Below are positions 34,270-38,595 of a stretch of DNA of 64,000 nucleotides, piece after piece. The notes below the pieces were generated by a model that was not told the origin of the DNA, searched no databases, and was given only the letters and a program-made list of their open reading frames with translations. Made by a program: the position numbers and the translations under genes. The stretch covers positions 1,674,001-1,738,000 of the forward strand of contig NZ_CP041198.1 in NCBI RefSeq assembly GCF_006517815.1. The letters are read 5' to 3'. Position 1 is the stretch's first letter; each line of letters starts with the position of its first letter. Source of the DNA: Pseudarthrobacter sp. NIBRBAC000502770 (lineage in GTDB: Bacteria; Actinomycetota; Actinomycetes; Actinomycetales; Micrococcaceae).

Positions 34270-36795
34270 CTAGGCCGGAACGATGTTCACCAGCTTAGGG
34301 GCACGGACGATCACTGTCCGGATGCCCCGGCCGTCCATGGCCCGTTGGACGTTCTCCGACGCCAGGGCCAGCTCGCGCAGCTGGTCCTCCGAGACGTCCG
34401 GGGACACTTCCAGCCGGTCGCGGACCTTGCCCTGCACCTGGACGACGGCGGTCACCGTGTCCTGGACCAGGAGGGCGGGATCGTGGGCCGGCCAGCCCGC
34501 GTTGGCAACCGATGCAGGGTGCCCCAGCAGGTTCCACATGTCCTCGGCAGTGTACGGCGCGAACAGGCTGAGGATCACGGCCACTGCTTCCGCGGCTTCG
34601 CGGACCGCGGGGTCCCCGGCACCCGCCCCGGAGTCGATTGCCTTGCGGGTGGCGTTGACCAGCTCCATAAGCTTGGCAACCACCACATTGAACTTGTTGG
34701 CGTCCAGCAGTTCGGCCGCATCGGCGATGGTGCGGTGGGTGACGGACCGCAGCCCACGGTCGCCGGCGGCGGCGTCCGCACCCGGGGCACTCGCCACATC
34801 CTGTGCCAGGCGCCAGGCCCGGGCCAGGAACTTGGCTGAGCCGGACGGCGACACGTCGGCCCAGTCCACGTCGTCCTCGGGCGGGGAGGCGAACACCATG
34901 GTCAGGCGGACGGCGTCCACGCCGAACTTGTCCAGCTGTTCGCCGAGGTCAACGCCGTTGCCCAGGGATTTGCTCATGGCCTTGCCGCCGTTGAGGACCT
35001 GGCCCTGGTTCAGCAATGCACTGAAAGGTTCGTCGGCATCGATCATGCCCAGGTCGTGGATGACCTTGGTGAAGAAGCGGGCGTACAGCAGGTGGAGGAT
35101 GGCGTGCTCCACGCCGCCCACGTACTGGCCCACCGGCATCCAGTCATTGATCTTCTGCGGATCGAAGGGGCCGTCGGTGTAGTGCGGTGAAACGAAGCGC
35201 AGGAAGTACCAGGACGAGTCAACGAACGTGTCCATGGTGTCGGTGTCCCGTTTGGCCGGCCCGTTGCAGGTGGGGCATTCCACGTTGACCCAGGACTCGG
35301 CTGCCGCAAGGGGCGAGGTGCCCATGGGTGCCAGGTCCTCACCGCGGAGGTCCGCGGGCAGCGTGACCGGCAGCTGCTCGTCCGGGACGGGAACTTCGCC
35401 GCAGGACGGGCAGTGGATGATGGGGATGGGCGTGCCCCAGAATCGCTGGCGGCTCAGCAGCCAGTCCCGGAGCCGGAAGTTCACGAACTTCTCGCCGGTC
35501 CCCTGCTTCTCCAGCATGGCGATGGCGGCGGGGATCGCCTCACCCTTGGGCATGCCGTCCAGCTCGCCCGAGTTGATCAGGGTCCCCTCCCCCGCCGTTG
35601 CGGTGCCGGACACGGCCGGGTCCTCCTCGCCGGTGTCCAGGACCGCCCGGACCGGCAGGCCGAAGGCCCTGGCAAAGTCGAGGTCGCGCTGGTCGTGGGC
35701 CGGCACGGCCATGATGGCGCCGGTTCCGTAATCCGCCAGGACATAGTCGGCAGCCCACACGGGCAGCTTCTCCCCGTTCAGCGGGTTGATGGCGTAGCGG
35801 CCGGTGAAGACGCCGGTCTTCTCGCGTTCGGTGGACTGGCGTTCGATCTCCGAGAGTGCCTTGACCCGTTCGCGGTATTCGTCCAGGGCCGCGGCGTGTT
35901 CGTCAGTGACAAGTTCGACGGCGAGGGGCGCGTCCGCAGCGACCACGAAGAAAGTTGCCCCGTACAGGGTGTCCGGGCGGGTGGTGAAGACCGTGACGTC
36001 CCTGGCGGGCTTGCCGCCGTCGGCCTCGATCACGAAGTTCACGTGCGCACCCTCGGACCGGCCGATCCAGTTCTTCTGCATGGCCAGGACACGCTCGGGC
36101 CAGTGGCCGCGGAGCTCGTCCATGTCATCCAGCAGGCGGTCGGCGTAGTCGGTGATCTTGAAGTACCACTGGTTCAGGGACTTCTTGGTGACGGTGGTGC
36201 CGCAGCGCTCGCAGGCGCCGTTGACTACCTGCTCATTGGCCAGGACGGTCTGGTCCTTGGGGCACCAGTTGACCGGGGAATCTTTCCGGTAGGCCAGCCC
36301 GCGCTCGTAGAAGCGCTTGAACAGCCACTGGGTCCAGCGGTAGTACTCGGGGTCTGAGGTGTGCAGGCGGCGCGACCAGTCGGCGGAGATGGCGTACCGC
36401 TTGAAGGACGCTGCCTGGGTGTCGATGTTGGCGTAGGTCCACTCGCTGGGGTGGGCGTTGCGCTTGATCGCGGCGTTCTCCGCGGGCAGGCCAAAGGAGT
36501 CCCAGCCGATGGGGTGCAGTACGTCGTAGCCCTTCTGCCGCAGGTAGCGGGCCACAACGTCACCCATGGCGAACGCCTCGGCGTGGCCCATGTGCAGGTC
36601 GCCGGACGGGTACGGGAACATGTCAAGCACGTAGCGGCGCTCCCGCGACCCGTCGTCCACCGGGGTGAAGACCTTGAGGTCTTCCCACACCTGGGGCCAC
36701 TTGGCCTCCATGGCGGCGAAACTGTAGGTGCCCTCTTCAGGCTCCGCCGATACTGTTGTTGCTGTTCCGGTCTCTGTCTCCGGCTGAACGCCCAC
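34270..36795 (-). CDS. leuS: Leucyl-tRNA synthetase
   Basis: LeuS charges tRNA-Leu with leucine. The 841-residue class I enzyme has the HMGH signature ([10 protein letters not shown]) and a CP1 editing domain at about 230-430. A zinc-type [10 protein letters not shown] insert, the AMSKSLGNG version of KMSKS and an anticodon-binding C-terminal region follow. GTG 36795 is preceded by GAGGGCAGCA at ideal spacing; the in-frame upstream start (36885) lies inside the leader terminator region and lacks a ribosome site. A leucine leader peptide and terminator precede the gene. Confidence 0.96.
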
Positions 36796-36880
36796 TGCTG
36801 CCCTCTTCTGTTCTGTTACGGCATCTGTGCTGCCATAACGGCCTGATCCTCCTGCTGCCGGCCCGGCGCCATGCCCCGGA

Positions 36881-36910
36881 CACACAAAAGCCCCTCTCCA
36901 TGGAGGGGCT
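36881..36910 (-). terminator. Attenuator terminator in the leuS leader
   Basis: On the minus strand AGCCCCTC (36910-36903) pairs with GAGGGGCT (36896-36889), followed by TTTGTGTG. It lies between the leuS leader peptide and the leuS start, on the strand that reads leuS, so it can end transcription before the gene. A separate hairpin with TCCGAT/ATCGGA arms lies just after the leader stop codon and may be the alternative structure. Confidence 0.75.
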
Positions 36911-36943
36911 GCCGCTCAGCTGTCCGATAATCGGAGCCGGCGG

Positions 36944-36970
36944 CTAACTAAGCAGAAGGATCGCACGCAT
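36944..36970 (-). CDS. leuS leader peptide (leucine attenuator)
   Basis: A nine-codon frame ATG to TAG encodes MRAILLLS, with three consecutive leucine codons (CTT CTG CTT). A TAAAGT -10 box ends six bases before the ATG, so the RNA would be leaderless. A terminator hairpin follows 34 bases later, then leuS. The peptide matches the leuA leader MRAELLLLS in all but one residue and one leucine. Function is inferred from this layout and the known leuA mechanism. Confidence 0.82.
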   Translation of the reverse strand: MRAILLLS

Positions 36971-36976
36971 GGAACT

Positions 36977-36982
36977 ACTTTA
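36977..36982 (-). promoter_or_regulatory. -10 box for the leuS leader transcript
   Basis: TAAAGT on the minus strand ends six bases before the leader ATG at 36970, the leaderless geometry also seen for the leuA leader. Confidence 0.55.
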
Positions 36983-37083
36983 GCGCACCGGTCCGGCCCC
37001 CGCCTCAGCCGGGCCTAACGGCCCGTTGCAATGGCCGGGGCAAGCGCGCATGATCATCCCACAACGTTGGGAGGCGGCACACC

Positions 37084-38595
37084 ATGTCAGAGGCAACCAC
37101 CGCCGGCCCTGCTGAAGGACAGCCACTCTCCCTCTGGCTGGCAACAACCGGAGCCACCGACTTTCCGGTCCTGCACGGCACCGTAGAAGTGGACGTGGCA
37201 GTCATCGGTGGAGGCATCGCCGGGCTGACCGCAGCCCTGGCCCTGAAACGCTCGGGGCGCTCGGTGGCCGTCCTCGAAGCCGGCCGGATCGGCACGGGCG
37301 TCACTGGCCACACCACCGGCAAGGTGACCTCCCTGCACCGCCTCGCCTACACGGATCTGCAGCGCAGCCACGGCACGTCAGCTGCCCGCGTTTACGGAGC
37401 AGCGAACCAGGCCGCCCTGGAACATATCGGCCGCGTCGTGGCGGCGGAAGACCTTTCCTGCGGATTCAGCCGCGTTGCCAACTACACCTTTGCGGCAGGT
37501 CCCGAGGCGCTGCCGAAGGTGCGCGCGGAAGCCGGACTTGCGGCCGCCCTCGGCCTTCCGTCGACCTTCACTACCGACGTGCCCCTGCCGTTTCCGGTGG
37601 CCGGCGCCGTCCGGTTTGACGGCCAGGCCCAGATCCACGCGGTCCAGTATCTTCAGGGGCTGGCCGGAAAGGTGGACGGCGGCGGCAGCTTTGTCTTCGA
37701 ACGGACACGCGCGGTGGATCTTCGCGAGGGCACGCCCGTCACCGTTGCGGCCGCAACAGGAACAGTGCTGGCCGGGGACGCAATCGTGGCCACGAACGTC
37801 CCCTTCGGAGACCATGGCCGATTTGAGTCACTTTGCCGGCCGCACCGCTCATACATCGTCGCTGCGCCGGTTGATACGCCTCCCCTGGACGCCACCTTCA
37901 TCAGTGCCGATGAACCCATGCACTCGCTTCTGACCGTGCGGCTGGACGGGACTACATACCTGCTGGTTGGCGGCGGAGGCCACCCCGCCGACGAGCAGGT
38001 TGATCCGGCACCGCGCCAAGCCGCGCTCGCCCGCTACGCGCGCAGCCACTTCAGGGCCGGCAGCGTGTCCTACCGCTGGTCCACCCAGGATGCCCTGCCC
38101 CAGGACGGGCTGCCCTACGCCGGACCGCTGAACCCTGACAGCCGGCACGCGTTCGTGATCACCGGCCTGCGCAAGTGGGGCCTGACCAACGGTACGGCCG
38201 CAGCATTGGCACTGGCTGACCTCCTCAATGGCACTCCCAATGCGTGGGCCGCCCTGTTTGACAGCAACCGAGCGCCGCGGCGGCCCACAGCGCAGGCAGC
38301 CCCACGGGCCGGGGACAGCGTTTCCCACACGGACTCCGCAGCGCGGGCAGCTGACCTCGCGCCGGGCGATGGAACGGTGCTTGACGCGGACGGAACCAGC
38401 ACGGCCTGCTACCGGGACGAGGCCGGACACGTCCACGCAGTGTCGGCTGTCTGCACCCACCTGGGCTGCACGGTGGGCTTCAACCGGGCAGACCGGACGT
38501 GGGACTGCCCCTGCCATGGCTCCCGGTTCGATGTGGACGGCAAAGTCATCCAGGGTCCGGCCACCGAAGATCTGCCACCGCGGCCCGTTCCCTGA
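37084..38595 (+). CDS. FAD-dependent oxidoreductase fused to a Rieske domain
   Basis: A 503-residue two-domain protein. The N-terminal DAO-type flavin domain begins with the dinucleotide motif VAVIGGGIAGLTAALALKR (about residues 38-56). The C-terminal Rieske [2Fe-2S] domain (about 410-500) has the complete ligand set CTHLGC and CPCHGSRF. Similar YhfW-like proteins are of unknown substrate. No signal peptide is present. The start ATG follows GGGAGG. It is divergent from leuS, stands alone as a transcription unit, and converges on glpK. Confidence 0.88.
   Translation: MSEATTAGPAEGQPLSLWLATTGATDFPVLHGTVEVDVAVIGGGIAGLTAALALKRSGRSVAVLEAGRIGTGVTGHTTGKVTSLHRLAYTDLQRSHGTSAARVYGAANQAALEHIGRVVAAEDLSCGFSRVANYTFAAGPEALPKVRAEAGLAAALGLPSTFTTDVPLPFPVAGAVRFDGQAQIHAVQYLQGLAGKVDGGGSFVFERTRAVDLREGTPVTVAAATGTVLAGDAIVATNVPFGDHGRFESLCRPHRSYIVAAPVDTPPLDATFISADEPMHSLLTVRLDGTTYLLVGGGGHPADEQVDPAPRQAALARYARSHFRAGSVSYRWSTQDALPQDGLPYAGPLNPDSRHAFVITGLRKWGLTNGTAAALALADLLNGTPNAWAALFDSNRAPRRPTAQAAPRAGDSVSHTDSAARAADLAPGDGTVLDADGTSTACYRDEAGHVHAVSAVCTHLGCTVGFNRADRTWDCPCHGSRFDVDGKVIQGPATEDLPPRPVP

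Follow-up and report, generated by a model that had tools for sequence, protein, structure and literature searches.

A leucine leader peptide and an intrinsic terminator before leuS of Pseudarthrobacter: a probable transcription attenuator that is widespread in Actinomycetes

The gene for leucine--tRNA ligase, leuS, of Pseudarthrobacter sp. NIBRBAC000502770 is preceded by a compact element in which an eight-codon open reading frame (ORF) with three consecutive leucine codons, MRAILLLS, is followed by two hairpins, the second of which is an intrinsic terminator. We studied this element in a stretch of 64,000 nucleotides of contig NZ_CP041198.1 (positions 1,674,001 to 1,738,000; referred to here as the window) and in related genomes. 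Judging from the sequences, we estimate at about 0.82 the probability that it acts by transcription attenuation through the leader peptide as such. Attenuation mediated by the ribosome is argued from the codons that match the gene, the probable leaderless start, the terminator and the lack of an upstream gene, and it is supported by the observation that where the element precedes other genes its codons change with the gene (isoleucine codons before cimA; isoleucine, leucine and valine codons before ilvB). The signal sensed is most likely the charging of tRNA-Leu. We infer the response to leucine and the direction of the switch, the latter from physiology.

Direct reading of the minus strand from 36982 to 36944 confirmed what the first-pass annotation of this DNA had described, namely a TAAAGT box, six bases and then the MRAILLLS ORF. 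A terminator hairpin with a U-rich tail, also noted there, was recovered by a terminator scan (36910-36879, minus strand), and the gene behind it was identified as leuS using TIGR00396 (Table 1). The first hairpin begins at the G of the leader stop codon. The terminator and its tail form the sole terminator-like site within 36500-37400 (one found, against a mean of 0.3 and a standard deviation of 0.6 in shuffled sequences), and the 91-nt leader folds with an energy of -38.6 kcal/mol (z -2.46), a value reached by 0 of 200 shuffles. When both strands of the 64 kb were scanned for short ORFs of this length class starting with ATG or GTG, MRAILLLS was the only one with three consecutive leucine codons. 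Since the next gene upstream of the leader (37084-38595, plus strand) is divergent, the terminator serves the leader/leuS RNA alone, and a terminator belonging to an upstream gene was ruled out on the same ground. The leuS frame in the ORF list opens at 36885; the GTG at 36795, which is preceded by AGAGGG, is the likelier start.

Table 1. Features of the leuS leader region in the window (paired arms named a:b and c:d)
Feature	Position	Strand	Basis or remark
-10-like box TAAAGT	36977..36982	-	sequence read; followed by six bases, AGTTCC, and the leader ATG
Leader ORF ATGCGTGCGATCCTTCTGCTTAGTTAG, encoding MRAILLLS*	36944..36970	-	
Regulatory leucine codons CTT CTG CTT	36950..36958	-	sequence read
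First hairpin, arms a:b, GCCGC...GCGGC, inner stem variable	36911..36944	-	folding and covariation
Intrinsic terminator hairpin AGCCCCTCCATGGAGAGGGGCT, arms c:d	36889..36910	-	terminator scan, folding, covariation
U/G-rich terminator tail TTTGTGTGTC	36879..36888	-	terminator scan
leuS, leucine--tRNA ligase, 841 aa	34270..36795	-	TIGR00396, 964.9 bits (cut-off 548.4)

In order to assess conservation, the LeuS protein was searched in 59 relatives, which gave a near-full-length match in 36 same-genus genomes, and the loci of the 30 best matches, all from the same genus and selected by LeuS similarity alone, were read. An MRAILLLS-type leader was present in all 30, 150-305 nt ahead of where the LeuS match begins, and in 30 of 30 it was followed by a CCCCTC...GAGGGGCTTTTGTGTGTC terminator; the tail motif TTTTGTGTGTC occurred in every row of the 30-row alignment. 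These loci support the proposal that leuS is preceded by a leucine-rich leader peptide and a terminator, and the absence of the peptide from close relatives, which had been named as a ground for rejecting it, was not observed. The variants within the genus were MRAILLLT, MRAIILLS, MRAVLLLS, MHAILLLS and MREILLLS, together with one GTG start and one longer peptide. The last leucine codon was CTT in each of the 30 loci.

Structure was compared in an alignment of 99 elements, 23 rows of which came from a pattern search; as it was fitted to the model, this alignment leans towards the structure. Both hairpins were observed to covary: there were 139 double-change cells, shuffling gave 31.7 and none of 500 shuffles came as high. 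In addition, 98.5% of the alignment cells were paired, compared with 45-60% for slid structures. Two-sided changes were found in four of the eight model pairs of the first hairpin and in five of the seven pairs of the terminator. In the first hairpin the three outermost pairs, CCG with CGG, are the same in all 99 elements, and the inner pairs covary.

The position of the box was counted in 104 elements whose start codon had been chosen without regard to it. In 103 of them a TAnnnT box lies upstream of the start codon with its end 5-8 nt away (81 at 6, 20 at 7 and 2 at 8), and at nine other offsets the same motif occurs in 0-6 elements. Because of this position and of an RNA-seq report from Streptomyces lividans considered below, the leader is probably translated from leaderless RNA. 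Codon use and spacing were counted in 103 elements, made up of the 30 LeuS-chosen loci and the finds of the covariance models, without the pattern loci, for which CTT had been a search requirement, and without five elements that precede cimA or ilvB. With the caution that covariance models favour these letters and so inflate the figures, the last leucine codon is CTT in 96 of the 103 and starts 8 nt upstream of GCCG in 100, and the distance between CGGC and CCCCT is 2 nt in 99, so that the hairpins abut. CTT accounts for 35 of the 328 leucine codons in seven window ORFs taken as genes. The leader stop is TAG, one codon after the last leucine, in 57 of the 99 aligned elements, and TGA, four codons after it and inside arm a, in 33.

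The distribution of the element was determined using two covariance models. With the first (R1, built from 30 sequences) and E up to 0.001 as the limit, single matches were obtained in 84 of the 197 family genomes and in 18 of the 198 from the order, and LeuS was downstream in all 41 loci fetched from its matches, some of whose genomes overlap the 30 same-genus ones. The second (R2, built from 39 sequences, with E up to 0.01 and strict filters) matched 104 of 197 genomes and 19 of 32 genera in the family, and 148 of 394 genomes and 54 of 137 genera in the class; a draw of 246 from the phylum gave 18, of which 13 belong to the same class and five, known as matches alone, lie outside it. Among 50 loci from R2 matches, 45 precede leuS, three cimA and two ilvB, locus L110 having been assigned to ilvB by its likeness to L108; since second matches in G447, G480, G532, G606 and G768 were picked on purpose, five in 50 should not be taken as the frequency with which the module stands before genes other than leuS. 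A pattern scan of named genomes returned at least 118 stretches. Among the matches listed, 80 loci all carried actinobacterial titles, with the genera Arthrobacter, Pseudarthrobacter, Paenarthrobacter, Sinomonas, Nocardioides, Micromonospora, Actinoplanes, Blastococcus, Nonomuraea, Streptomyces and Kibdelosporangium among them. leuS lay immediately behind the element in 77 of these 80, and in the other three the sequence ends 38, 250 and 139 nt past the element.

The same leader precedes two types of LeuS, a short one (841 aa in the window) and a long one, which are about 37-43% identical over the aligned parts; one of each type was run against TIGR00396 and both scored above the cut-off. Behind the pattern loci among the matches listed, 41 were long and 36 short. 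Both are found even within one genus, g78, where the LeuS of L066 is 65% and that of L068 41% identical to the window LeuS (one genome each), and the leaders of these two loci are very similar, MRFRLLLI and MRSRLLLT, despite the different types. The simplest reading of these sequences is that the gene was replaced behind a retained leader.

Leaders of similar design were observed before the citramalate synthase gene cimA (TIGR00977). Twenty of 23 cimA loci (L273-L295, overlapping L105, L106 and L118), judged by eye, have a short ORF whose isoleucine codons are directly followed by a pair of abutting hairpins, of which the second carries a T-tract, as in the leuS module. At least two adjacent isoleucine codons are present in 17 of the 23, as in MTYCLIIT and MQRTAIIIP. 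No such leader was seen by eye at three Streptomyces-like f37 loci (L280, L281 and L284), and the source genome gave no TIGR00977 match. The source genome does have a leader-like ORF, MTFVTAGIVVVLTKRVAH*, before an ilvB-like gene at 2028102-2029796 (L296, G000:C2), where a GCGCGTG...CACGCGC hairpin is followed by a CCCCTC...GAGGGG terminator with a T-tract, and a CTT lies 8 nt before GCGCG, as at leuS. Leaders of ilvB are of a known kind (PMC1262725).

The window element is of the same kind as the leuS attenuators of Streptomyces, and very probably the same by descent. Seliverstov et al. 2005 (PMC1262725) predicted such attenuators for S. avermitilis and S. coelicolor, and a 2021 RNA-seq study (PMC8079986) reports LeuL2 of S. 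lividans TK24, with the sequence MRAVRLLLSEPR, as leaderless and with a hairpin and U stretch. The first-pass annotation had not recognised attenuation of leuS by an eight-residue peptide as well described, a view that these papers do not support; its observation is confirmed and its interpretation right in kind, and not new in principle. Four R2 matches of one genus (L097, L111, L112 and L113), found with a model built on Micrococcales, encode exactly MRAVRLLLSEPR. The window and Streptomyces elements share a leader with three leucine codons before leuS, a hairpin and a U stretch, and probably also a leaderless start. They differ in the stop codon, which comes one codon after the last leucine in the window and four codons after it in the Streptomyces peptide, in the short type (841 aa) of the window LeuS, and in that no conserved antiterminator was found here.

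The element was also compared with other systems. Leader-peptide attenuators of the E. coli type (trp, his, leu, pheST) likewise have regulatory codons and a terminator between leader and gene; unlike them, the window element is probably leaderless, its hairpins abut, and no overlapping 2:3 and 3:4 helices were found in it. An attenuator of pheST is named in PMC1262725, and so is the LEU element of leuA, which is also actinobacterial and also has a leucine-rich leader ORF. In contrast to the LEU element, the window element has a terminator, and pairing of its leucine run with the Shine-Dalgarno region is not clearly above that of shuffled or non-cognate sequences (164 elements). T-box RNAs share the control of synthetase genes. 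No T-box matched at gathering score in the window, and none was among three weak matches (E up to 10) in 36700-37100, in line with the first-pass reading. Rfam 15 as a whole gave no family at gathering score anywhere in the window. A search of titles and abstracts, with thin coverage of subscription journals and thus no proof of absence, found no account of the element in Micrococcaceae or of a cimA leader peptide.

Several observations weigh against attenuation as we read it. A simple scan found no two-hexamer sigma-70 promoter at the leader. A mutually exclusive antiterminator is a usual feature of leader-peptide attenuators, and folding of truncated leaders together with an anchored helix scan found no conserved one. 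The predictions for Streptomyces leuS do include antiterminators, and codon changes in other Streptomyces leaders (ilvB, leuA) defied the classical prediction, both according to PMC1262725. Finally, 27 genomes that had no R2 match or came from distant rows of the LeuS search were searched by LeuS protein, and 21 of the leuS loci contained the 5' region, in which presence or absence was judged by eye. The element was present in six (L245, L257, L259, L260, L261 and L262), where it had been filtered out or had diverged, and no element was seen in 14 loci without an R2 match (L246-L256, L258, L271 and L272). L244, of the same family, has a terminator with TTTTGTTGTGTC before leuS and a short ORF, MYSQRDLA, which lacks a leucine run; this is perhaps a decaying attenuator. 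As 14 of the 21 loci read show no element and one only a remnant, the element is widespread and not universal, and was probably lost in several lineages of the family.

The antiterminator search bears on how the terminator might be controlled. Folding of 65 sequences with no ribosome, with a stalled ribosome and with a ribosome at the stop codon gave arm c no consistent partner before arm d is made. The anchored scan covered the 96 elements, out of 99, that allowed anchoring, and sought 4-bp helices in at least half of them; besides the two hairpins it yielded a possible a:d helix in 81% of the 96, and several helices of about 50% that join leucine codons or the leader start to arm d with few G-C pairs. 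A helix between leader start and tail drawn by RNAalifold was rejected: it shows no compensatory changes, and beyond the genus the leader start is divergent. The first-pass annotation had suggested that the hairpin behind the stop codon may be the competing structure. That hairpin is real and covaries, and its competition with the terminator is unsupported, as the stems lie end to end and have no bases in common. Classical antitermination by a competing helix that was missed, such as arm a with arm d (AGCC/GGCU), seems to us unlikely. A second role for their bases would be in keeping with the invariance of the three outer a:b pairs, and the antiterminators reported for Streptomyces leuS (PMC1262725) speak in favour of such a helix together with the frequency of the a:d possibility; this helix, however, must displace both stronger stems, and arm c was left without a partner in all three ribosome states.

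Since no mutually exclusive antiterminator was found, we propose that the terminator is gated by position. Transcription would begin at the ATG or beside it, and the eight-codon leaderless peptide would be made by a 70S ribosome. With ample Leu-tRNA the ribosome would pass the leucine codons and run on to the stop codon; there, where stop codon and hairpin base overlap, it would melt the first hairpin and let the terminator end the RNA. With scarce Leu-tRNA it would stall on a leucine codon; if the codon in the A site is the last CUU, the first stem would have its start about +12 from the P site, which by ribosome geometry and footprint size is just outside the ribosome, and would stay folded. 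The folded hairpin, abutting the terminator stem, may then prevent closure of the terminator base within the RNA exit channel, and leuS would be transcribed. For this abutting-hairpin step we would give somewhat less than even odds. It is more doubtful that there is one modular attenuator for actinomycete branched-chain amino acid genes (leuS, cimA, ilvB) which dispenses with a mutually exclusive antiterminator, in which a U-ending regulatory codon 5 nt before the hairpin sets that hairpin at the mRNA entrance of the ribosome, the abutting hairpin gates closure of the terminator, and the module is kept despite differing LeuS types.

With the same sensor, the first hairpin could have the opposite role, stacking on and strengthening a weak terminator, so that a ribosome on the last CUU would hold the hairpin open and prevent termination under starvation. 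The 2-nt CGGC-CCCCT distance would suit stacking as well, and ribosome footprints of the nuclease type would extend from the last codon into arm a. A stall at the first two leucine codons, or a ribosome resting at the stop codon, would however give the wrong outcome, and the 5-nt spacing leaves the stem just outside the ribosome entrance; we hold this arrangement to be improbable, to the same degree as the missed helix. Far less probable is translational control in which the leucine run masks the Shine-Dalgarno region of leuS, as proposed for the LEU element of leuA: leucine codons such as CUCCUU are complementary to Shine-Dalgarno sequences and single strong duplexes exist (for example L001), but over the 164 elements the mean duplex energy is -16.9 kcal/mol with the cognate partner, -16.3 with shuffled and -16.1 with non-cognate partners, and the cognate duplex beats the non-cognate median in 60% of them. 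A constitutive partial terminator beside a chance short ORF is the least credible of all, given that before leuS the leucine codons and the start have been retained across the class together with the box, the spacing and the two hairpins.

Other features of the region were noted. The gap between terminator and leuS (36815-36853, minus strand) contains AGGAGG at 36853-36848, a tiny ORF, MAAQMP*, at 36836-36816 and an inverted repeat, GTTATGGCA/TGCCGTAAC, at 36839-36815, features that are partly conserved in the genus. The translation of the divergent neighbour at 37084-38595 resembles an FAD-dependent oxidoreductase, with a C-terminal motif that we take to be Rieske-like.

What is added here is the occurrence of the element in Micrococcaceae, its breadth, its constraints in quantified form, the finding of no antiterminator, and the isoleucine leaders before cimA. 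Leader-peptide control of a tRNA synthetase gene, a prediction made for two Streptomyces twenty years ago, thus appears to be widespread in Actinomycetes, where it stands before two types of LeuS and has apparently been lost in some lineages. With its fixed CUU, fixed spacing and abutting hairpins, the element offers a clean test case of how a terminator might be controlled by a stalled ribosome in the absence of a classical antiterminator.
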